NCBI GenBank assembly: GCA_021815305.1
Contig: JAKAHC010000003.1
Location: 124,001 to 188,000, forward strand
Source of the DNA: Deltaproteobacteria bacterium
GTDB taxonomy: Bacteria; Desulfobacterota; Deferrimicrobia; Deferrimicrobiales; Deferrimicrobiaceae
DNA: 64,000 nt
Reading direction: 5' to 3'
This document shows positions 33,065 to 63,109 of the stretch, in pieces. Each line of letters begins with the position of its first letter. Within the stretch, counting starts at the first letter, position 1. The notes beneath the pieces are model-generated. The model was not told the DNA's origin, made no database searches, and was given only the letters and a program-made list of their open reading frames with translations. The translations under genes and the position numbers were made by a program.

Positions 33065-34381
33065 ATGAATCCATTCAGTGCCGGTTTCGCATTACCTCTG
33101 GTAGCGGCAGCGTTTATCCTCGTGGGTTTGACGCTCATCGCTTACGCGAGGCCAGATATAGCCCTGCTGATATTTCTCGGGAGCTTGTATCTTGAATCCG
33201 AAATATTTTCCATCGAGACCCCCATTGGCCGGCTGAGACCCAATCTGTTGATGGCGGCAGTCGTTACCGTGGGCATGACGTTAAACAGGTTGGCCACGCA
33301 TAGACCCGTTGTTCTCGCAAGGCCGGTCATTTACCTGGGTTTGTACGTCGCCGGGAACGTCATTTGCTTGGTAAACAGTCAAAATCTTTCGATGAGTTTC
33401 AGGATCATCGGGCTGCTTCTCGCGTGGTTCCTCGTTGATATCTATCTGGTCAATCAATGTTCGGGAGAGAAGACCGCGGCCAAACTGGTGAAGGCATTTC
33501 TATTATTCGGTATGCTCCAGGCGTTGATCGGCGTCGGTCAAATGCTTGGAGAATTTGTCAGGCCTACAGGGATGATCAGTTCCGGAGACTCCGATTATTT
33601 CGCATTGGCGATGATGGGGAACCTGTTGGTTCTGAATACGTTGCATCTGTTCCGGGTACGGGTTTTTGGCAGGATGCAGGATAACTTCATGGTTGCGCTC
33701 TTTGCCGCGAACGTCTTTTTCTCGTTCGTCCGCTCTAGTTGGATCGGATATATTGCTGGCATCCTCGTCCTCGGGTTTTTCGCGTTATTTTTTAATCCGG
33801 TACGGTTTTCCATGCGCGGAAGGAACCTCCTGGTGACGGCCGGCCTGGTCGCCGCGGTTTGCGTTGCGGGTTTTATTGCGCTGCCTAATCTGCGGGACTT
33901 CTTCTGGCAAAGAATCTCCCTTTCAGAGACCGGTGCTTACTCGATCAGCGAAAATATCCGCTTGGTGATGATAGGGGAGAGCTGGCGGAATGCGCAGGAT
34001 AGCCTTCTGATCGGCCATGGCCCGGGTGCATTCGCAACGCAGGGAAGCGCCCTGGATATGGACTTCAGCCGGGGTATTCCTTTCGATCCGAGCATCGCAA
34101 CCACCTTGGTAAACGACACCGGGGCGTTCGGAGCAGGAATTTTCATTGTTTATCTCCTGTCGTTATTTCGATTCTTGTTAGGTTCCTTGAAGGCGAATCC
34201 GGAAAGTATATCCGCAAAATATGCGGTGGCCTTCGGGGTTGCCGCCATCGGACTTCTGTTCTCCTATGTTATGACGAATGGGCTGTGGCTTCCGTTTTCA
34301 TGGGTATATTTCGGGATCGCCACTGCTTGTGCCAAATGCGCCTTCACCGGGAAAAGGGTCAAGGGTTATGCCGGCGCCTGA
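33065..34381 (+). CDS. wzy: O-antigen polymerase / ligase-like membrane protein
   Basis: A 438-residue protein with about 11-12 transmembrane helices. The Wzy_C/WaaL-type periplasmic loop shows RSSWIGYIAGILVLG, then NAQDSLLIGHGPGAFATQGS, which fits the large loop with its conserved Arg and Gly-Pro-Gly-Ala-Phe. Wzy polymerises lipid-linked units; WaaL ligases use the same fold. With wzx and wzz nearby and no other candidate here, polymerase is preferred. It overlaps the next gene by 14 bp. Confidence 0.8.
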   Translation: MNPFSAGFALPLVAAAFILVGLTLIAYARPDIALLIFLGSLYLESEIFSIETPIGRLRPNLLMAAVVTVGMTLNRLATHRPVVLARPVIYLGLYVAGNVICLVNSQNLSMSFRIIGLLLAWFLVDIYLVNQCSGEKTAAKLVKAFLLFGMLQALIGVGQMLGEFVRPTGMISSGDSDYFALAMMGNLLVLNTLHLFRVRVFGRMQDNFMVALFAANVFFSFVRSSWIGYIAGILVLGFFALFFNPVRFSMRGRNLLVTAGLVAAVCVAGFIALPNLRDFFWQRISLSETGAYSISENIRLVMIGESWRNAQDSLLIGHGPGAFATQGSALDMDFSRGIPFDPSIATTLVNDTGAFGAGIFIVYLLSLFRFLLGSLKANPESISAKYAVAFGVAAIGLLFSYVMTNGLWLPFSWVYFGIATACAKCAFTGKRVKGYAGA

Positions 34382-40110: not shown

Positions 40111-43100
40111 TTACTGGAGGTCAAACGGAATGGTGAAATACGCCTCGTACGGTGCAGCAGACCCCACGTCCCGGGCCCAAACCGTCAAGAAGTGCGTTCC
40201 GGCTGCCAGGCCAGTGGTATCCCAGTTCCAACTATTGCCCGGAACTGCGTAGTCCTTCACGATATTCCAACCATTATTGTATAACCAGAACCTGTATTCG
40301 TAGGTACCCGAGCCGCCACTGGCGGATGCGGTCAATGTTACCGTTGTCCCAATCGTTTGTGGGCTACTGGGAGAAGGTGCGAGTGTCACCGCCGAGGCAG
40401 GCGGAGCGGCTATGACGTATGGCGCAGAGGTCTGATTAGTTTCATATGAAGCGGTAGATCCCGCATTCCTGGCCCATGCGGTCACATAGTACGTTGTTCC
40501 TCCAGGCAATCCAGTGGTATCCCAGTTCCAACTATTGCCCGGAACTGCGTAGTCCTTCACGATATTCCAACCATTATTGTATAGCCAGAACCTGTACTCG
40601 TAGGTACCCGAACCGCCACTCGCAGTAGCCGTCCAAGTCACCGACGTACCCGGAAGTTGCGGGCTAGCAACGGATGGTGTGAGGGACACCGATGAGGCTG
40701 TCGGGGAAAGGAGAAATGAAATAGTCGTATATGCATCATATGCTGCCGTTGAACCGGCTTGCCTGGCCCATACTGTCACAGAGTACATAGTCCCGCCGAC
40801 AAACCCGGTAGTGTCCCACGTCCAGCTATTGCCGGACACCCCGTAGTCCTTCACGACATACCAACCATTATTGTATAGCCAGAACTTGTACTCGTAGATC
40901 CCGGATCCGCCACTGGCAGCAGCCGTCCAAGTCACCGATGTGCCCGGAAGCTGCGGGCTGGCGGGAGATGGGGTGAGAACGACACCGGTGGCGGCGCCCG
41001 TTCCCGTGAACAGATAGGTCGTGGTTGCGCTGGCCTCCGACGCGGAGGTGGATCCGGCGCTACGTGCGTTCACAAGGATATCATAGCTTCCGGATGGAAT
41101 AGCCGCTGTGTTCCAAGCCCAGGTGGCGCTCGAACCGTACGCTTGCCCGATTGTGTAGGTTGGTGTGCCGGTAAGTCGATACGAGAACTGGTACTGGTAG
41201 GTCCCCGACCCACCATAGGCAGCCGCCATCCACGTTACGGATGTCCCGGCGGCTTGTGGGCTCGACGGACTAGGTACGAGTGTCACCGCGGTCGCAGGAA
41301 GCGGTGCGAGCGAGTATGCAACTGTGGTGGTCGCTTCAGAGGCCGAAGTCGAGCCTAAGACCCGGACATCCACTTTGAAACCGTAACTGCTTAATGCCAA
41401 CCCAGTGGTGTTCCAGACGAAAGCAGACGTCTGGGAGTACGGTTGCACGACAGTCATAACGCCCGACACGTTGTCGGAGAACTGGTACTGGTAGGTCCCC
41501 GACCCCCCGCTCCCGCCGGCGAGGAAAGCCACGAGAGTGCCCGGAGGTTGAGGACTCGTCGGATAGGCAACCAGCACTGCCCCGGTTGCGGGTAGAAGTG
41601 AGGGCGTGAGCGCGTAGGGAACCGCTCCGCTGGTGGCTTCGGAGGCCGCCGTGGAACCGGCGTTCCTGGCCAGAACCTGGATTTCATAGTTTCCCGCCGC
41701 GAGCCCCGCGGTGTTCCACACCCAGGTGCCGGCCGATGAGTAGGCCTGGGCCACGGTCCACGCGGTCGCACCCACTTGTCTCCATTCGAACGCGTATTGG
41801 TAGGTGCCGCTCCCTCCGCTGGCGGCGGAGGTGAAGGTGACGCTCGTTCCAACGGGTGCCGAGGTGGCGGGACTGGCCACCAGCGTTACCCCCGTGGCCG
41901 GAGAAGTGCCCAGCACGAAGGGCACCGTCGGGCTGGTCGCCGGAATTGCCGCCGCACCCGTACCCCCCGTGGTCCGGGCCAGAACATGGATCTCGTAGTT
42001 GCCCGCCGGGTATGTGGAGGTGTTCCATATCCAGTTGTTGCTCGAGGTGTAGGTCCGCGCCACGGTCCATGATGCCGCGCCCGCCAGCCTTTGTTCGAAC
42101 TGGTACTGGTAGGTGCCGGTTCCGCCGGTGGCCGTCGCGATGAAATTCACGATCGTGCCGACGAGTTGCGGACTTGCAGGATGCACAGCGAGGGTCACAC
42201 CGGTTGCAGGAGAGAAAGTACCCGTCGTAACCGGCGGGGTGATGTTCGACCAATTCGAATTTCCGATGTTGTTGAAAGCGCGGATGCGGTACCTGTACGA
42301 AGTGTTTTGCGTAAGCGCGGTGTCCGTATAGGTGGTTGCGTTCGTGTAGGCGATCGTCAGGTCCTGGAAAACCCCGACACCGGCGGCCCGCTGGATCAGG
42401 AAACCGGTCTCGTTGTTCGAATTGTCCACCCATGCGAGGTTGATTTGGGAATTATCGATTCCGGACAACGTGGCGGTCAGGCCGGAAGGGGCAAGGGGTT
42501 GATCCGTGGGAACCCGGAATTCGACCGCCCGCATCATGTCGTTTTCTTCGTGGCCCAGCAGGTGGCAATGCCAGACGTACTCGAAGCCGTAGTTGTGAAG
42601 CTGGTTGGTGACGGTAAGCGGGGTCCCGTCCGCCGGGTTGATTCCCGCAAACCCCATCGCGCTGCCGATCGGCTGGGTCGGGTCCAGGAGGCGAACGCTT
42701 TCGGGGAGCAGGAAGGGAAGCGTCTGATTCTTCGGCTGGATCGCGACGATGATGTCTTCCAGCGGGTTCATGAGGACGGTTTCCTTCCAGCCGATCTCCC
42801 AGGGGTCCGGCGGCCGGATCGCCCCGTCCCAGCCCACCCGGTTGATCACCTGCACGTTGACCAGGTGGAAGTGGATGGCGTGGGTATCCACGCCGTTATG
42901 CGTGATCTTCCAGAACTGGGTTTCCCCGTCCGTCAAGACCTCCGTGGGCGGATCGATGTACCCGAAGGGGAGCGTCGTCTGGGTGAAAAAGTTCGTCAGC
43001 GGAAGCTCGACCCCCAGCAACGCGTTCATCCGTCCGTATTTCAGTTCGAAGAGTTCATGGATGGCCTTCCGGAGCAAGGGGACCGTCCTCTGGATCGTGG

Positions 43101-45096
43101 AGCCGACGGGAGTATACGTAATGGTGTTGTCCTGGATTCTCGCATAGGTATCGGTGAACGTCTGCCCGTAGACGCTGTCGTAGGCAGACTCGGGCAGGAT
43201 GATCGTGGGCTGCGACGCGGCGAAGGCCGCCGGCAGGGCGTTATCGAGCGCGGCCACGTTGAACGGAGCGGCCGCCGTCCCGCTTACCCGGAACTGCATG
43301 ATGGTCCGGGTGTTGGGACCGTATCCCGCCACGGTCGGAGCCATGCCGCCGCTGTTGGTCATGTCCGGGTCGCCCGTATAGTAGTCGTTCCGCTCATCAA
43401 ACGCCGGAACCGGCGCGGGCGCGTCGTTATAGAGGATGATCGTGGACCCGGAAGGAACCGAGGAGAAGTCGATGATGACGTCGGCCCGTTCCGCCGGCCC
43501 CAGGAAGAGCGCCTTCTGGTTGACGTTCAGGACCACGATGTTCCTGCGGTTGTATTCGTAGTTGACGGGATGGTTGGGGATCGTCACCGGAGCCGGCAGG
43601 ATGCCGCCCTCGTTGCCGACCTGGATCATGTTCGGCCCCACCGTGGTCGGATCCGGCACGCCGCCGTTCCTTCCATCTGTCGGCCAGTCCGCGGGGAACC
43701 CCGCGGTGGCAACCGCGGGGACCATCTTGACTTCCGTGGGGTTCAAAGGATCGGCGTAATATAACTGCAGGTTCCACATCCGGTCGTTGGCGGCATTCAG
43801 GATCCGGAACCGGTACGCCTTGGGCCGCACCACGAGGTAGGGGTAGGCGGTCCCGTTGATGACCGGGGTGTCCATGAACCCTTCCGGCACACCGGACGGC
43901 TGCGGCAGCGGACCCAGCAACTGTGTGGGATCCAGCGGAGGCCAGAACCAGGGACCATAGTCCCACCGGCCGAACGGGTTCGCCCCATCGATGCTATAGG
44001 GATCCTGGTTCGTCTCGTAGACGTGAGGGAACCAGAGATCGCCCGGCTGCCCCCACCGGGTCGTGTCCCACAAAGCATCCTGGGCGGCGATGTCCTGGGG
44101 AACGAAGGTCTTGTCCTGGATGATCAGGGGGATGCCGTAACGGTACTGCGCTCCCAGGTCGCTCTGGACCGGGTAGACCCCGGTGTTGATCAGGTTTTCC
44201 TCGGTGTTGTCCGTAAGCAGGTACCCGGCGGCCATCCCGGCATACACGTTGAGGCGCGTGATCCCGAAGGCATGGTCGTGGTAGAACATCAGCCGGCTGC
44301 TCTGCTGGTTGGTGTAGTACAGCGTTTCCTGGCCCGTGGCAAGGGTATCCACCGGCATGTCGGGGACGTTTTGCTGACTTACACCGATGCGGTACCTGTT
44401 GGTCTCCGCCGCGGGGGTAAACCACTGGTGAGGCGTCCCGTCGCTGACCCACGGAGTGTTGCCGCCATGGAGATGGACGGAAGTGCGGTTCTGCGAGTAG
44501 TTCGTCACATTATCGTCGGGGCCCAGCCCCGCCCCCATGTACGTGGTGTCCACAGGGATGAAAAGATTGCCCGCGGTTCCCGTGGGGAGCATGTTGGTGA
44601 CCTTGAGGCGCACCGGTTTGTTTTCCTGGGCGATGACCAGGGGTCCCAGGTAATGCGGAGTGGGGTCGGCGCCCGGGGCAAGATCCCGGTACCCCCGCAG
44701 CCGGGTCGCCTTGGGAAGATCCGAATGCAACTTTTCGGCGTAGCCGACGATCCCGATCTCGTAATAATCATCCCCGTTGCCTGTCGGGTCCGTGAGCTTG
44801 CTCGCGACAGGGATGTACTGGCCGATCTCGTTCGCCCCGCAGGTGGCGGTGGAGAAAGCCGCCCCCGCCGTGTTGTCACAACCGGGGAGCCCCACGCCGG
44901 GAAGCCGGTCGACGAACTTCCTGAGAGGCGTACCGGAGACGTGCACGTTTCCGGCGTAGTCGGTCCATGTGCCCGCCGGGCTGTTGGCGTAATACGTTCC
45001 GCCCCCCGGGCCGGCGATGGCCTGGTTGATCCCCCACGCCAGGGTAACCGCCACGAAGAACAGGCCGGCGACTTTCGGGAATCTCCCTCTGGTCAT
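40111..45096 (-). CDS. Secreted multicopper oxidase with FN3 and seven tandem repeats
   Basis: ATG at 45094-45096 follows AAAAGGAGA; 1661 residues. A signal peptide ends near NQAIA. The oxidase spans ~25-865. Copper ligands are in TSVHLHGGNTPW (~210), LMFYHDHAFG (~271), THAIHFHLVNVQV (~742) and YVWHCHLLGHEEN (~845). An FN3 domain (~870-960) follows, then seven ~98-residue beta repeats (964-1660). Large secreted multicopper proteins such as Geobacter OmpB act in metal oxidation or reduction and binding at the cell surface. It sits 38 bp downstream of an FKBP gene, presumably in one operon. Confidence 0.9.
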   Translation of the reverse strand: MTRGRFPKVAGLFFVAVTLAWGINQAIAGPGGGTYYANSPAGTWTDYAGNVHVSGTPLRKFVDRLPGVGLPGCDNTAGAAFSTATCGANEIGQYIPVASKLTDPTGNGDDYYEIGIVGYAEKLHSDLPKATRLRGYRDLAPGADPTPHYLGPLVIAQENKPVRLKVTNMLPTGTAGNLFIPVDTTYMGAGLGPDDNVTNYSQNRTSVHLHGGNTPWVSDGTPHQWFTPAAETNRYRIGVSQQNVPDMPVDTLATGQETLYYTNQQSSRLMFYHDHAFGITRLNVYAGMAAGYLLTDNTEENLINTGVYPVQSDLGAQYRYGIPLIIQDKTFVPQDIAAQDALWDTTRWGQPGDLWFPHVYETNQDPYSIDGANPFGRWDYGPWFWPPLDPTQLLGPLPQPSGVPEGFMDTPVINGTAYPYLVVRPKAYRFRILNAANDRMWNLQLYYADPLNPTEVKMVPAVATAGFPADWPTDGRNGGVPDPTTVGPNMIQVGNEGGILPAPVTIPNHPVNYEYNRRNIVVLNVNQKALFLGPAERADVIIDFSSVPSGSTIILYNDAPAPVPAFDERNDYYTGDPDMTNSGGMAPTVAGYGPNTRTIMQFRVSGTAAAPFNVAALDNALPAAFAASQPTIILPESAYDSVYGQTFTDTYARIQDNTITYTPVGSTIQRTVPLLRKAIHELFELKYGRMNALLGVELPLTNFFTQTTLPFGYIDPPTEVLTDGETQFWKITHNGVDTHAIHFHLVNVQVINRVGWDGAIRPPDPWEIGWKETVLMNPLEDIIVAIQPKNQTLPFLLPESVRLLDPTQPIGSAMGFAGINPADGTPLTVTNQLHNYGFEYVWHCHLLGHEENDMMRAVEFRVPTDQPLAPSGLTATLSGIDNSQINLAWVDNSNNETGFLIQRAAGVGVFQDLTIAYTNATTYTDTALTQNTSYRYRIRAFNNIGNSNWSNITPPVTTGTFSPATGVTLAVHPASPQLVGTIVNFIATATGGTGTYQYQFEQRLAGAASWTVARTYTSSNNWIWNTSTYPAGNYEIHVLARTTGGTGAAAIPATSPTVPFVLGTSPATGVTLVASPATSAPVGTSVTFTSAASGGSGTYQYAFEWRQVGATAWTVAQAYSSAGTWVWNTAGLAAGNYEIQVLARNAGSTAASEATSGAVPYALTPSLLPATGAVLVAYPTSPQPPGTLVAFLAGGSGGSGTYQYQFSDNVSGVMTVVQPYSQTSAFVWNTTGLALSSYGFKVDVRVLGSTSASEATTTVAYSLAPLPATAVTLVPSPSSPQAAGTSVTWMAAAYGGSGTYQYQFSYRLTGTPTYTIGQAYGSSATWAWNTAAIPSGSYDILVNARSAGSTSASEASATTTYLFTGTGAATGVVLTPSPASPQLPGTSVTWTAAASGGSGIYEYKFWLYNNGWYVVKDYGVSGNSWTWDTTGFVGGTMYSVTVWARQAGSTAAYDAYTTISFLLSPTASSVSLTPSVASPQLPGTSVTWTATASGGSGTYEYRFWLYNNGWNIVKDYAVPGNSWNWDTTGLPGGTTYYVTAWARNAGSTASYETNQTSAPYVIAAPPASAVTLAPSPSSPQTIGTTVTLTASASGGSGTYEYRFWLYNNGWNIVKDYAVPGNSWNWDTTGLAAGTHFLTVWARDVGSAAPYEAYFTIPFDLQ
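40114..42207 (-). repeat. Seven tandem ~98-codon repeats in the multicopper oxidase
   Basis: Each unit starts with a form of ATGVTLxPSPxSPQ and contains GTSVTWTAxASGGSGTYxY, a W-W/T-W segment and VWARxAGST. The last two units are nearly identical in DNA: 40211-40320 and 40511-40620 differ at three positions over 110 bp and are offset by exactly 300 bp. Earlier units are more diverged. Confidence 0.92.
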
Positions 45097-45134
45097 GTTG
45101 CGTCTCCTTTTGTCGCTGAAAAGATGGTCGCTCC

Positions 45135-45800
45135 TTATTTCCGGATCTCGAGAAGCTCCACTTCGAATGCCAGCGTCGCCCCGGGCAGGATGAGGTCTCC
45201 CGCGCCGGTATCGCCGTAGGCGAGCGTCGACGGGCACACCAGCCGCGCCTTGCCGCCCACCTTCATCTTCCGCAGCCCCTCGTCGAAACACTTGATGACG
45301 CTGTCGAGCCGGAACTCGGCGGGCGTTCCGCGCTTGTAGGAGCTGTCGAACTCCTTCCCGTCGGACAGGGTTCCCCGGTAGTTCACCTTGACCGTGTCCG
45401 TCACGGCCGGGCTTTTCCCGGTGCCCTCTTTCAGCGAAAGGAAGACCATGCCGGACGCCGTCTTGACGGCGCCTTTTTCCCTGGCGGCCTTCTCGAGGAA
45501 TTCCCTGTTGACGGAAGCCATCTTCTCGCCTTCGGCCTTGCGGCGCGACCGGGCCAGCTCCTGGACCTTTCCGTTATAGGCCGCCAGGTCCACGGCGGGA
45601 GTCTTGCCGGTGGCGGCATCCGTGATCCCCTGCTTCACGTACTCCAGCTCGGCGGGAGTGAGGTGAAACACGCCGAGCGAGCGGGATACGAGGAGGCCGA
45701 TGGCATAGAGCGTTTTCTGCTCCTCGGTCCTGGGCGGTTCCCCGGCGAAGGAGGGAGCGGCGAGCAGGAAAATCAGGAAAGCGATGACGAGTTCGCGCAT
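45135..45800 (-). CDS. FKBP-type peptidyl-prolyl isomerase, exported
   Basis: ATG 45798-45800 gives 221 residues with a signal peptide ending in APSFA. An N-terminal helical FKBP_N-type dimerisation region (~20-110) is followed by the FKBP domain (~120-219): DTVKVNYRGTLSDGKEFDSS, VIKCFDEGLRKMKVGGKARL, LAYGDTGAGDLILPGATLAF and VELLEIRK. MIP/FkpA-like proteins help fold periplasmic and secreted proteins. It lies directly upstream of the oxidase gene, so the oxidase may be its client (inference). Confidence 0.92.
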   Translation of the reverse strand: MRELVIAFLIFLLAAPSFAGEPPRTEEQKTLYAIGLLVSRSLGVFHLTPAELEYVKQGITDAATGKTPAVDLAAYNGKVQELARSRRKAEGEKMASVNREFLEKAAREKGAVKTASGMVFLSLKEGTGKSPAVTDTVKVNYRGTLSDGKEFDSSYKRGTPAEFRLDSVIKCFDEGLRKMKVGGKARLVCPSTLAYGDTGAGDLILPGATLAFEVELLEIRK

Positions 45801-45894
45801 GGTTTGCGACCCTTGGAATAAACGAGATCCATCACTTCGCATAGAACTCTGCCTCCGATCGCAAGCACTCTGGCAGCGACAGTGCCTTCTACCA

Positions 45895-45910
45895 AGCAGA
45901 AGCCGTGCCA
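45895..45910 (-). promoter_or_regulatory. Sigma-54-type promoter for the FKBP-oxidase operon
   Basis: The minus strand reads TGGCACGGCTTCTGCT, matching TGGCAYRN4TTGCW at all but one position and keeping the -24 GG and -12 GC. It lies about 95 bp upstream of the FKBP start at 45800. Activator sites were not identified. Confidence 0.6.
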
Positions 45911-46090
45911 CGGAAAGCTACCCAAGAACCTGTTTAGAAACATATGATTGGTTGATTTGCTGAAGACGGGAGGATCCATCAGAAGGGGAATTTCGAATAA
46001 TTGCGACGAGGTGTTTGAATATCTTCGAATGCACTGCGGAGCGCGACCCGTTTTCCGTTATGAATAAGGCCCTTCCCGTGTGGAAATCGT

Positions 46091-46106
46091 GGGCATGACT
46101 GTTGCT
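46091..46106 (+). promoter_or_regulatory. Sigma-54-type promoter for the second FKBP gene
   Basis: GGGCATGACTGTTGCT matches TGGCAYRN4TTGCW at all but the first base. The predicted start near 46118 leaves a short leader containing AAGGAGG before ATG 46155. It faces away from the promoter at 45895-45910. Confidence 0.62.
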
Positions 46107-46154
46107 GTGTAAATACGTCGTTCCTTTTTTTGCGTATGCCTCCAAGGAGGGTCG

Positions 46155-46847
46155 ATGAGACAGGCATGGATCGTTGCATTGGGAGTGATGCTCGTTGCCT
46201 CTCCGGCACTTGCCGACGAATCCTCTGCCTTAAAGACGCAGAAGGATCTGGAAAGCTACGGCATCGGCGTCACCACCGCGAGGAACTTCAAGCGGCAGGG
46301 GATCGAGGTCGACCTGGACGCCTTCGTCAAGGGATTGAGGGACGGGCTCACCGGCGGGAAGCTCCTCATGAGCGAGAAGGATCTCCGCGTGATCATGAAC
46401 ACCTTCCAGCAGGATTTGCGGCAGAAGCAGAAGTTGGCCGTCAAGGTGGCCTCAATAGAAAACAGCAAACAGGGAGCGGAGTTCCTCGCGGCCAACGCAA
46501 AGAAGCCGGGCGTGGTTACGCTGCCGGACGGTCTGCAGTACAAGATCCTGAAAGAGGGCAGCGGCAGGAAGCCGGCCGATGCCGACAAGGTGGAGGTCCG
46601 ATATCGGGGCACGCTCTTGAACGGCTACGAGTTCGACGGCACCGACCTGGACGGGCCGCCCGCCAACCTCGAGATCGGCGGCGGGATCATCCGGGGGTTG
46701 CGCGAGGCGCTCAAGCTCATGTCCGTGGGATCGAAGTGGGAGGTCTATGTCCCTTCCGCACTTGCGTACGGCCCCCGCGGGGTGGGCGCCGACATCGGCC
46801 CGAACGCGACGCTGATCTTCGAAGTGGAGTTGCTTGCCATCAAATGA
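46155..46847 (+). CDS. FKBP-type peptidyl-prolyl isomerase, exported
   Basis: A 230-residue protein with a signal peptide ending ASPALA and an AAGGAGG site. The N-terminal FKBP_N-like part (SYGIGVTTARNFKRQGIEVD, DLRQKQKLA) is followed by the FKBP domain from ~125 (LPDGLQYKILKEGSG, KVEVRYRGTLLNGYEFDG, IRGLREALKLMSVGSKWEVY, ALAYGPRGVG). It is a paralogue of the divergent FKBP at 45.1 kb. A role in periplasmic folding is expected. Confidence 0.93.
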   Translation: MRQAWIVALGVMLVASPALADESSALKTQKDLESYGIGVTTARNFKRQGIEVDLDAFVKGLRDGLTGGKLLMSEKDLRVIMNTFQQDLRQKQKLAVKVASIENSKQGAEFLAANAKKPGVVTLPDGLQYKILKEGSGRKPADADKVEVRYRGTLLNGYEFDGTDLDGPPANLEIGGGIIRGLREALKLMSVGSKWEVYVPSALAYGPRGVGADIGPNATLIFEVELLAIK

Positions 46848-46954
46848 ACCGAATCCGGCGTGAAGAAATCTTGTTCCCCATCCGATAAAAGATATGGATA
46901 ATACTCCCGAGAGTTTGCTTCGTTGAACCTCCTGCTTTTCCGAGAGGGTACGGA

Positions 46955-48889
46955 TTGACTCTTCGCGACTCCACCTCGGCTACGCTTTCGTCTGCATTGG
47001 GGTTGTCGTTCCGGCTGCGGGGGGCCATCAAGTTCCTTCTGCACGTCGGCATCTTCCTTTCCGCGTATTTCGGGGCGTTCTTCTTCCGGTTCGATTGGTC
47101 GATCCCGCCGGAGTACTTCCTCCTGATCCGCCATACGATCCCCGCCGTTCTCGCCTCCAAGGCGCTGGCGTTCCTCGCATTCGGGCTCTTCTACGGCTGG
47201 TGGCGGTACGTTTCCATCCACGATGTCCTGCCGATCGTCGGGGGGTGCACCTTAGGCTCGATGCTCCTGTGGATCACGAACCAGTTCCTGATGACCCATG
47301 GGTCGATCCCGCGATCGGTCTACGCGATCGACTGGGGACTCACCCTGATGTTCACTCTGGGGGCGCGGTACTTCATCCGCTTCGGCCGGGAGACGCTGGG
47401 GCGCAAGCGCCGCGACACGGACCGCCGCGTGCTGATCGTGGGGGCGGGGTCCGCCGGCCAGACGATCGTCCGCGAGATCCGGCGCAACCCGGCGCTCGGG
47501 ATGATCGAAGTGGGCTTCATCGACGACGACTGGGCGAAAGCGCACACGCGCATCGACGGCGTACCGGTGCTTGGTCGGCAGACGGAGATCGCCGCGATCT
47601 GCCGGAAGCACGCGATCGACGAGATCATCATCGCCATTCCGTCCGCGTCCCCGTCGCGCCTCCGTCAGATTCTGAGGTACTGCAAGGACGTCAAGGCCCG
47701 GGCGCGGATCCTTCCGGGTGTGGGGGACCTGATCGACGGGAAGGTGAGCCTCCGGGACTTGCGCAACGTGAATCTCGAGGACCTCCTCGGCCGCGACCCG
47801 GTGTCGCTGGACGAGGGGCTCCTCCACCGCCACATCACGGGCCGCACGGTGATGGTCACGGGCGCGGCGGGGTCGATCGGATCGGAGCTGTGCCGGCAGC
47901 TCGCTCGCCTGTTGCCGGCGCGGTTGGTGATGTTCGAGATCGCGGAAAGCCCGCTGTTCGATTTCGAGATCGAGATGCGGGAGAAGTTCCCCTCGCTGGA
48001 AATGGTGGCCGTCATCGGCGACGTCCGCGACCGGCGGCGCGTGGAGGAGACGCTTGTGGCCTACCGGCCGGCCGTCATTTACCACGCGGCGGCCTACAAG
48101 CACGTTCCGATGATGGAGATGCACCCGGTCGAGGCGGTGAAGACCAACGTCCTGGGGACGCGGATCATCGCAGGGGCCGCGGCCAGGCAGGGCGTAGAGC
48201 GGTTCGTTCTCGTGTCCACCGACAAGGCGGTGCGGCCCACGAACGTGATGGGGGCGACCAAGCGGCTGGCCGAGCTGATCATCCACAACCTGAACGGGGG
48301 AGAGGGATCCACGGTCTTCGTGGCCGTGCGGTTCGGCAACGTGCTCGGCAGCGCCGGGAGCGTGATCCCGATCTTCCGCAGGCAGCTCGAGACGACGGGG
48401 AAGATCACCGTGACCCACCCGGATGCATCCCGCTACTTCATGCTCATCCCCGAGGCCGCCGGGCTCATCCTGCAGGCCGGGGCGATGGGGACGGGCGGCG
48501 AAGTGTTCGTCCTCGACATGGGCGAGCCGGTGAAGATCGTGGAGCTGGCCGGGAACCTGATCCGCCTGTCGGGGAAGGAGCTGGGGGTCGATGCCGAGAT
48601 CGTCTATACGGGCCTGCGCCCCGGCGAGAAGCTCCACGAGGAGTTGATCATCGAGGGGGAGGATGTCATGCGCACCTTCCACCCGAAGGTGATGAAGCTG
48701 ATCGGCAACGAGACCATGCCCCCGGAATGGGGCAAGCGGGTGGAGGAGCTGATCGTGACCGCCATCACCGGGGAGCGCGGTTCCGTCGTCGAGAAGCTGG
48801 ACGCCCTCGTGAAAGGGTACCGCCCCGCCTACGAGTTCCACGGCATCCCCGCCGCCGAAACGATCTCCTCCTCCAAATCCCTCCACTAA
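46955..48889 (+). CDS. WbpM/PglF/CapD-type UDP-GlcNAc 4,6-dehydratase
   Basis: TTG 46955 (after GAGAGGG) gives 644 residues. Four N-terminal transmembrane helices (~20-130) are followed by a CoA-binding-like Rossmann domain (RRVLIVGAGSAGQTIVREI) and the catalytic SDR (VTGAAGSIGSELCRQ, HAAAYKHVPMME, STDKAVRPTNVMGATKR). A Met stands where SYK enzymes have Tyr, as known for the large WbpM class. It makes UDP-2-acetamido-2,6-dideoxy-D-xylo-4-hexulose. The WbpV-like reductase and WbpL-like transferase at 38 kb would take over the product. Confidence 0.92.
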   Translation: MTLRDSTSATLSSALGLSFRLRGAIKFLLHVGIFLSAYFGAFFFRFDWSIPPEYFLLIRHTIPAVLASKALAFLAFGLFYGWWRYVSIHDVLPIVGGCTLGSMLLWITNQFLMTHGSIPRSVYAIDWGLTLMFTLGARYFIRFGRETLGRKRRDTDRRVLIVGAGSAGQTIVREIRRNPALGMIEVGFIDDDWAKAHTRIDGVPVLGRQTEIAAICRKHAIDEIIIAIPSASPSRLRQILRYCKDVKARARILPGVGDLIDGKVSLRDLRNVNLEDLLGRDPVSLDEGLLHRHITGRTVMVTGAAGSIGSELCRQLARLLPARLVMFEIAESPLFDFEIEMREKFPSLEMVAVIGDVRDRRRVEETLVAYRPAVIYHAAAYKHVPMMEMHPVEAVKTNVLGTRIIAGAAARQGVERFVLVSTDKAVRPTNVMGATKRLAELIIHNLNGGEGSTVFVAVRFGNVLGSAGSVIPIFRRQLETTGKITVTHPDASRYFMLIPEAAGLILQAGAMGTGGEVFVLDMGEPVKIVELAGNLIRLSGKELGVDAEIVYTGLRPGEKLHEELIIEGEDVMRTFHPKVMKLIGNETMPPEWGKRVEELIVTAITGERGSVVEKLDALVKGYRPAYEFHGIPAAETISSSKSLH

Positions 48890-63032: not shown

Positions 63033-63109
63033 ATTCTCCCGCTTCCCGAGGGGGCCTCCTGCGCGGGTCTTCGCAGCCGGTTGGCACGGGGTTTGGATTC
63101 CCCCTTCCC

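Follow-up and report, generated by a model that had tools for sequence, protein, structure and literature searches.

Divergent sigma-54-type promoters of a multicopper oxidase and two FKBP isomerases in a Deferrimicrobiaceae bacterium flank a putative common activator site

Introduction

A 64,000-nucleotide stretch of the genome of a Deferrimicrobiaceae bacterium (assembly GCA_021815305.1, contig JAKAHC010000003.1, positions 124,001 to 188,000; hereafter the window) carries two genes for exported FKBP-type peptidyl-prolyl isomerases that face away from each other, FKBP-A (45135-45800, minus strand) and FKBP-B (46155-46847, plus strand), and, behind FKBP-A, the gene of a large exported multicopper oxidase (40111-45096, minus strand). 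The gap between the isomerase genes contains two elements of the -24/-12 type recognized by sigma-54 (RpoN). Promoters of this kind require RpoN together with an activator, whose site lies about 100 bp upstream, and transcription starts about 12 nt past the GC. The arrangement raises the question of whether the oxidase and both isomerases are switched on together and, if so, by which regulator. We consider it probable, from sequence comparison, that one activator, bound centrally in the gap, drives both divergent promoters and thereby the oxidase and the two MofB-like isomerases. In the following, G000 denotes the source genome, other G numbers related genomes, C numbers contigs and L numbers loci.

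Results

The minus-strand element TGGCACGGCTTCTGCT (45895-45910) belongs to the FKBP-A/oxidase unit, with the ATG 94 nt downstream, and the plus-strand element GGGCATGACTGTTGCT (46091-46106) to the FKBP-B unit, with the ATG 48 nt downstream. Both retain the GG at -24, the GC at -12 and the 16-bp element spacing, and they lie on opposite strands, pointing away from each other. The first-pass annotation of this DNA had described both as one position off the consensus, and this was confirmed with TGGCAYRN4TTGCW, from which the minus site differs by a C replacing the first T of TTGC; under the stricter TGGCACGN4TTGCW a second mismatch appears in the plus site. Transcripts are predicted to start at about 45884 (minus) and 46117 (plus), so that the 5' leaders would be about 84 and 38 nt long.

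Motif counting as the sole evidence proved uninformative. With at most one mismatch allowed, the whole genome gave 50 matches as compared to 48 for the reversed pattern, and the window gave 3 as compared to 0.83 expected, a number reached by 9 of 100 shuffles; the motif by itself is therefore at background. One further one-mismatch match in the window, TGGCACGGGGTTTGGA at 63082-63097 (plus strand), lacks the essential GC at -12. Unlike the motif alone, position and comparison carry evidence for the two sites.

With respect to position, a sigma-54 matrix was run over 1.2 Mb of genome sequence with a gene caller retrained on known genes, and the matches in upstream regions were ranked. Nineteen upstream matches of at least 12 bits were obtained, as compared to 2.4 ± 1.5 with column-permuted matrices, an about eightfold excess. 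Among these upstream matches the minus site of the window ranked second (17.5 bits) and the plus site eighth (15.1 bits). The scan was validated by the fact that several other top matches adjoin activator genes. RpoN itself is encoded at G000:C6:518064-518543 (PF04552, E 2.4e-60), and about 25 activators having a complete AAA domain are encoded in the genome, all of them outside the window.

With respect to comparison, the linkage of oxidase and FKBP genes is found in many genomes. For each oxidase/FKBP unit, 300 bp upstream of the first gene were taken regardless of any match and scored with a cut-off of at least 12 bits. Among units of the same family, as given by the assigned family labels, 8 of 13 carried a sigma-54 site, against 0.17 expected from permuted matrices; without the two units of the window the count was 6 of 11, and among units of other families 6 of 15, against 0.25 expected, with some of the relatives' gene starts being uncertain. 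None of 21 FKBP genes unlinked to an oxidase had a site of at least 12 bits. A site directly before the oxidase itself was not the rule among 80 diverse named loci; the signal emerged once the first gene of the FKBP/oxidase unit was taken. In the operon at G050:C17, where the order is FKBP-A, SCO1/SenC, MofC-like, oxidase, the element TGGCATACTAACTGCT stands 96 nt ahead of the FKBP-A ATG, compared to 94 nt in the window. The L198 and L215 operons (SCO, MofC-like, FKBP-A, oxidase) have sites that score 16.4 and 15.3 bits, respectively, ahead of SCO, and FKBP-B is found inside the oxidase operon in G001, G014, G003 and G006.

A candidate regulator came from a cassette found immediately ahead of the oxidase in G003, in G008 and, twice, in G014. 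It comprises a large sensor kinase, an NtrC-type activator and a small receiver protein, and in the G014 copy examined the kinase has a MASE3 domain. The source genome has an orthologous cassette at C1:128965-133470, on a separate contig from the window, with a MASE3 sensor kinase (C1:128965-131505, 49% identical to its cassette orthologue) and a candidate NtrC-type activator (G000:C1:131535-132884) that is 72% identical to the G014 orthologue over 452 residues; two kinases adjoin this activator. Its assignment as NtrC-type is based on the receiver, sigma-54 interaction and Fis-type helix-turn-helix Pfam domains of the G014 orthologue, the NCBIfam AtoC/NtrC matches being below cut-off. Between the activator and receiver genes of the C1 cassette lies a sigma-54 site, TGGTACGGCTTCTGCT, which is identical to the minus site of the window in 15 of 16 letters, spacer included.

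The promoters of such cassettes were used to search for an upstream activator site (UAS). Expectation-maximisation on eight cassette promoters, with the window excluded, returned a 13-bp motif, GAAATTCTTCGAG, with a score of 155 (shuffles 101 ± 4, maximum 110); seven of the eight carry it twice, at a spacing of 22-23 bp. The motif was also present at the matching place in the untrained cassettes of G008:C97, G014:C20, G019:C269 and G032, and was not found in the G007 or G000:C7 cassette promoters. In the window, a putative UAS element GAATATCTTCGAA lies at 46017-46029 (plus strand; 15.9 bits with the trained motif, 15.1 with a relatives-only matrix) and a second one, GCAATTATTCGAA, at 45992-46004 (minus strand; 11.4 bits), whose palindromic core is shared in part with a weaker element read on the plus strand at 45985-45997 (7.6 bits). 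The pair begins 90 and 106 bp from the two promoter elements. Thus the enhancer-type site that the first-pass annotation proposed to look for between the promoters appears to exist, at 45985-46029.

The motif was then scanned through 1.62 Mb, retaining non-coding phased pairs that scored at least 20 and had a sigma-54 site of at least 13 bits at a distance of 40-220 bp. Exactly three places passed: the C1 cassette, which was a training sequence; the window gap, with the pair at 45985-46029 (plus strand) between both promoters; and the promoter of a second multicopper oxidase, at C1:74887 with a sigma-54 site at C1:75022. With 60 permuted matrices, not a single place passed. Oxidase promoters of the relatives G001, G006 and G011 are likewise preceded by the motif, which in G001 occurs twice with a 22-bp spacing. 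Elsewhere in the window, a UAS-like pair at 33169-33213 with the sigma-54-like GGGAACGTCATTTGCT (33353-33368) apparently lies inside the reading frame of a membrane protein and was judged false. In the gap, an IHF-like site at 45945-45957 (minus strand) was rejected as being at chance (16 matches, 15 expected), and a plain repeat search gave nothing convincing.

FKBP-A (221 residues; FKBP_N and FKBP_C) has a signal-like N terminus, and FKBP-B (230 residues) is 36% identical to it. The oxidase begins 38 bp past FKBP-A and is therefore probably on the same transcript. It has 1661 residues with Cu-oxidase_2, fn3 and Big_7 (Ig-like) domains and the copper motifs HLH, HDH, HFH and HCH, and its nearest relatives among solved structures are CotA-type enzymes; as a large exported multicopper oxidase with fn3 it resembles the OmpB/MofA type. 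Of the linked genes expected for that type, FKBP genes adjoin the oxidase here, and SCO and MofC-like genes were found only in the operons of relatives. The C-terminal part of the oxidase (window 40111-42300, minus strand) is a row of similar Ig-like repeats of the SGGSGTYEYxFWLYNNGW type.

On the other side, FKBP-B is followed by a CapD-like polysaccharide biosynthesis gene (46955-48889, plus strand; Polysacc_synt_2). No terminator-like site was seen in the 107 bp between the two, and their co-transcription is uncertain. In G013, G021 and G007, orthologues of FKBP-A (L168, L169 and L170; 66-80% identical) stand directly before the CapD gene and are without a sigma-54 site; compared to these genomes, FKBP-A of the window is turned round beside the oxidase, as if rearranged.

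Discussion

The relatives' sites, the absence of sites at unlinked FKBP genes and the UAS all support the earlier suggestion that the two isomerases and the oxidase are under joint sigma-54 control. From the sites, their positions, their recurrence in relatives and the common activator motif, we infer the following course of events. RpoN holoenzyme would occupy the two -24/-12 elements and wait. An NtrC-type activator, most likely that of the C1 cassette, would be phosphorylated, presumably through its MASE3 kinase, and would bind the two ATTyyTCGAA elements that lie at about 45985-46029, halfway from one promoter to the other. The bound activator could then loop the DNA and open both sigma-54 complexes, giving FKBP-A and the large OmpB/MofA-like oxidase on the minus side and FKBP-B on the plus side, so that the oxidase and both isomerases would appear together. 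The isomerases probably aid the folding of the exported oxidase, in which case the enzyme and its helpers would be made at the same time.

Several points weigh against this reading. The sigma-54 matrix is an approximation built on the known consensus, and the UAS scan covered 59% of the genome. The spacing of the UAS elements in the window is 32 bp when both are read on the same strand and 25 bp when they are read as an inverted pair, compared to the usual 22 bp. The single mismatch of the plus site is a G in place of the leading T. The FKBP/oxidase units of Geobacter argillaceus and Oryzomonas have no good sigma-54 site, and the wiring is therefore not universal. Finally, the activator gene is on another contig, away from the genes of the window, the other activators of the genome, about 25 in all, are alternative candidates, and a paralogue at C7:289920-291269, 59-61% identical, has a similar helix-turn-helix.

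These last points are also those that favour another activator, for instance the paralogue G000:C7:289920-291269 or any other of the set, acting on two promoters that both depend on sigma-54. We regard this as unlikely, since the paralogue's own promoter is without the UAS motif that the C1 cassette promoter has, and since the sigma-54 element of the C1 cassette is nearly identical to the minus site. Less likely still is that the minus promoter alone depends on sigma-54, the plus match being fortuitous and FKBP-B being read from an ordinary promoter. The plus site is indeed the weaker of the two and lacks the leading T, and FKBP-B orthologues away from the oxidase have no such site. It nevertheless ranks eighth in 1.2 Mb, has the correct strand and a suitable distance to the ATG (48 nt), and is separated from the UAS midpoint by about 80 bp; moreover, FKBP-B lies within the oxidase operon in four related genomes, and no sigma-70-like site was seen at 45000-47100. 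That both matches arose by chance, with the genes being read from other promoters, is highly improbable: the sites were picked by eye and the pattern is no commoner genome-wide than its reverse, but their rank among upstream matches, the recurrence of sites in the relatives' units and the independently trained UAS between them all speak against it.

Control of both promoters by a single activator can be compared with known systems. In Pseudomonas, Mn oxidation by multicopper oxidases needs MnxS1/MnxS2/MnxR and rpoN and is lost in an rpoN mutant (PMC11409713), and sigma-54 and IHF sites are predicted at the mnxG and mcoA promoters (PMC11930936). The presence of two kinases beside the activator is common to that system and to the C1 cassette, a likeness of logic only. 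The oxidases there are others (MnxG, McoA), and the accessible parts of both papers describe neither FKBP genes nor a common divergent control region.

A match in gene content is found in the OmpB/MofA clusters. According to PMC5566968, OmpB of G. sulfurreducens, a homologue of MofA, is an fn3-bearing multicopper oxidase required in the reduction of Fe(III) oxide; the mofABC operon of Leptothrix encodes the isomerase MofB and MofC, and in clusters of this type the oxidase is linked to a peptidyl-prolyl isomerase, a MofC-type protein and a SCO1/SenC chaperone. This gene set agrees with that of the operons found in the relatives. The window differs in having two isomerases, one per side of divergent promoters, and no SCO or MofC gene was seen beside its oxidase; sigma-54 control is not described in the available portion of PMC5566968. 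The RpoN regulon of Geobacter sulfurreducens has the same promoter consensus, TTGGCACGGTTTTTGCT, and no copper proteins or OmpB/OmpC appear in the main text of PMC2725144. Our search found no literature linking RpoN with multicopper oxidases in Geobacter. Divergent sigma-54 operons with a common activator motif are reported for Desulfovibrio vulgaris (PMC4641369), with other genes and activators and with the activator gene within one of the operons.

The first-pass annotation had named metal or envelope stress as a possible trigger. The genes present suggest a role in metal redox or extracellular electron transfer more than one in general envelope stress, and the recurrence of this wiring in relatives points to a regulator for an oxidase family tied to iron and manganese chemistry. 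Little seems to be known of the way in which oxidases of the OmpB/MofA type, tied to iron reduction and manganese oxidation, are turned on, and the available text of the papers cited describes no regulator. The present analysis names a candidate activator and a kinase, and supplies a putative binding motif together with predictions of where the transcripts start. It also assigns folding isomerases to the oxidase regulon, in agreement with an earlier proposal by which the oxidase is matured by MofB-like isomerases. Whether a dedicated family of MASE3 kinases and NtrC-type activators, with a defined motif, constitutes a conserved, self-regulating switch for OmpB/MofA-like oxidases and isomerases in this family and parts of the phylum, and thus an undescribed counterpart of MnxR, is in our view an evenly balanced matter.

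Other sigma-54 sites in the genome

Additional sites were noted in G000. Another outward pair is present at C6:262501 (minus) and 262794 (plus) (L060/L061), close to an activator gene at C6:265346 and a response-regulator gene. Three sites within 7 kb (C5:198165, 202680 and 205232) stand ahead of exported-protein genes and adjoin the activator gene C5:198868, probably forming a separate regulon. At C6:632237 (minus), 632306 (minus) and 632392 (plus), two more outward sites enclose one UAS-like element, and the plus side at C6:632392 leads to a small exported protein.
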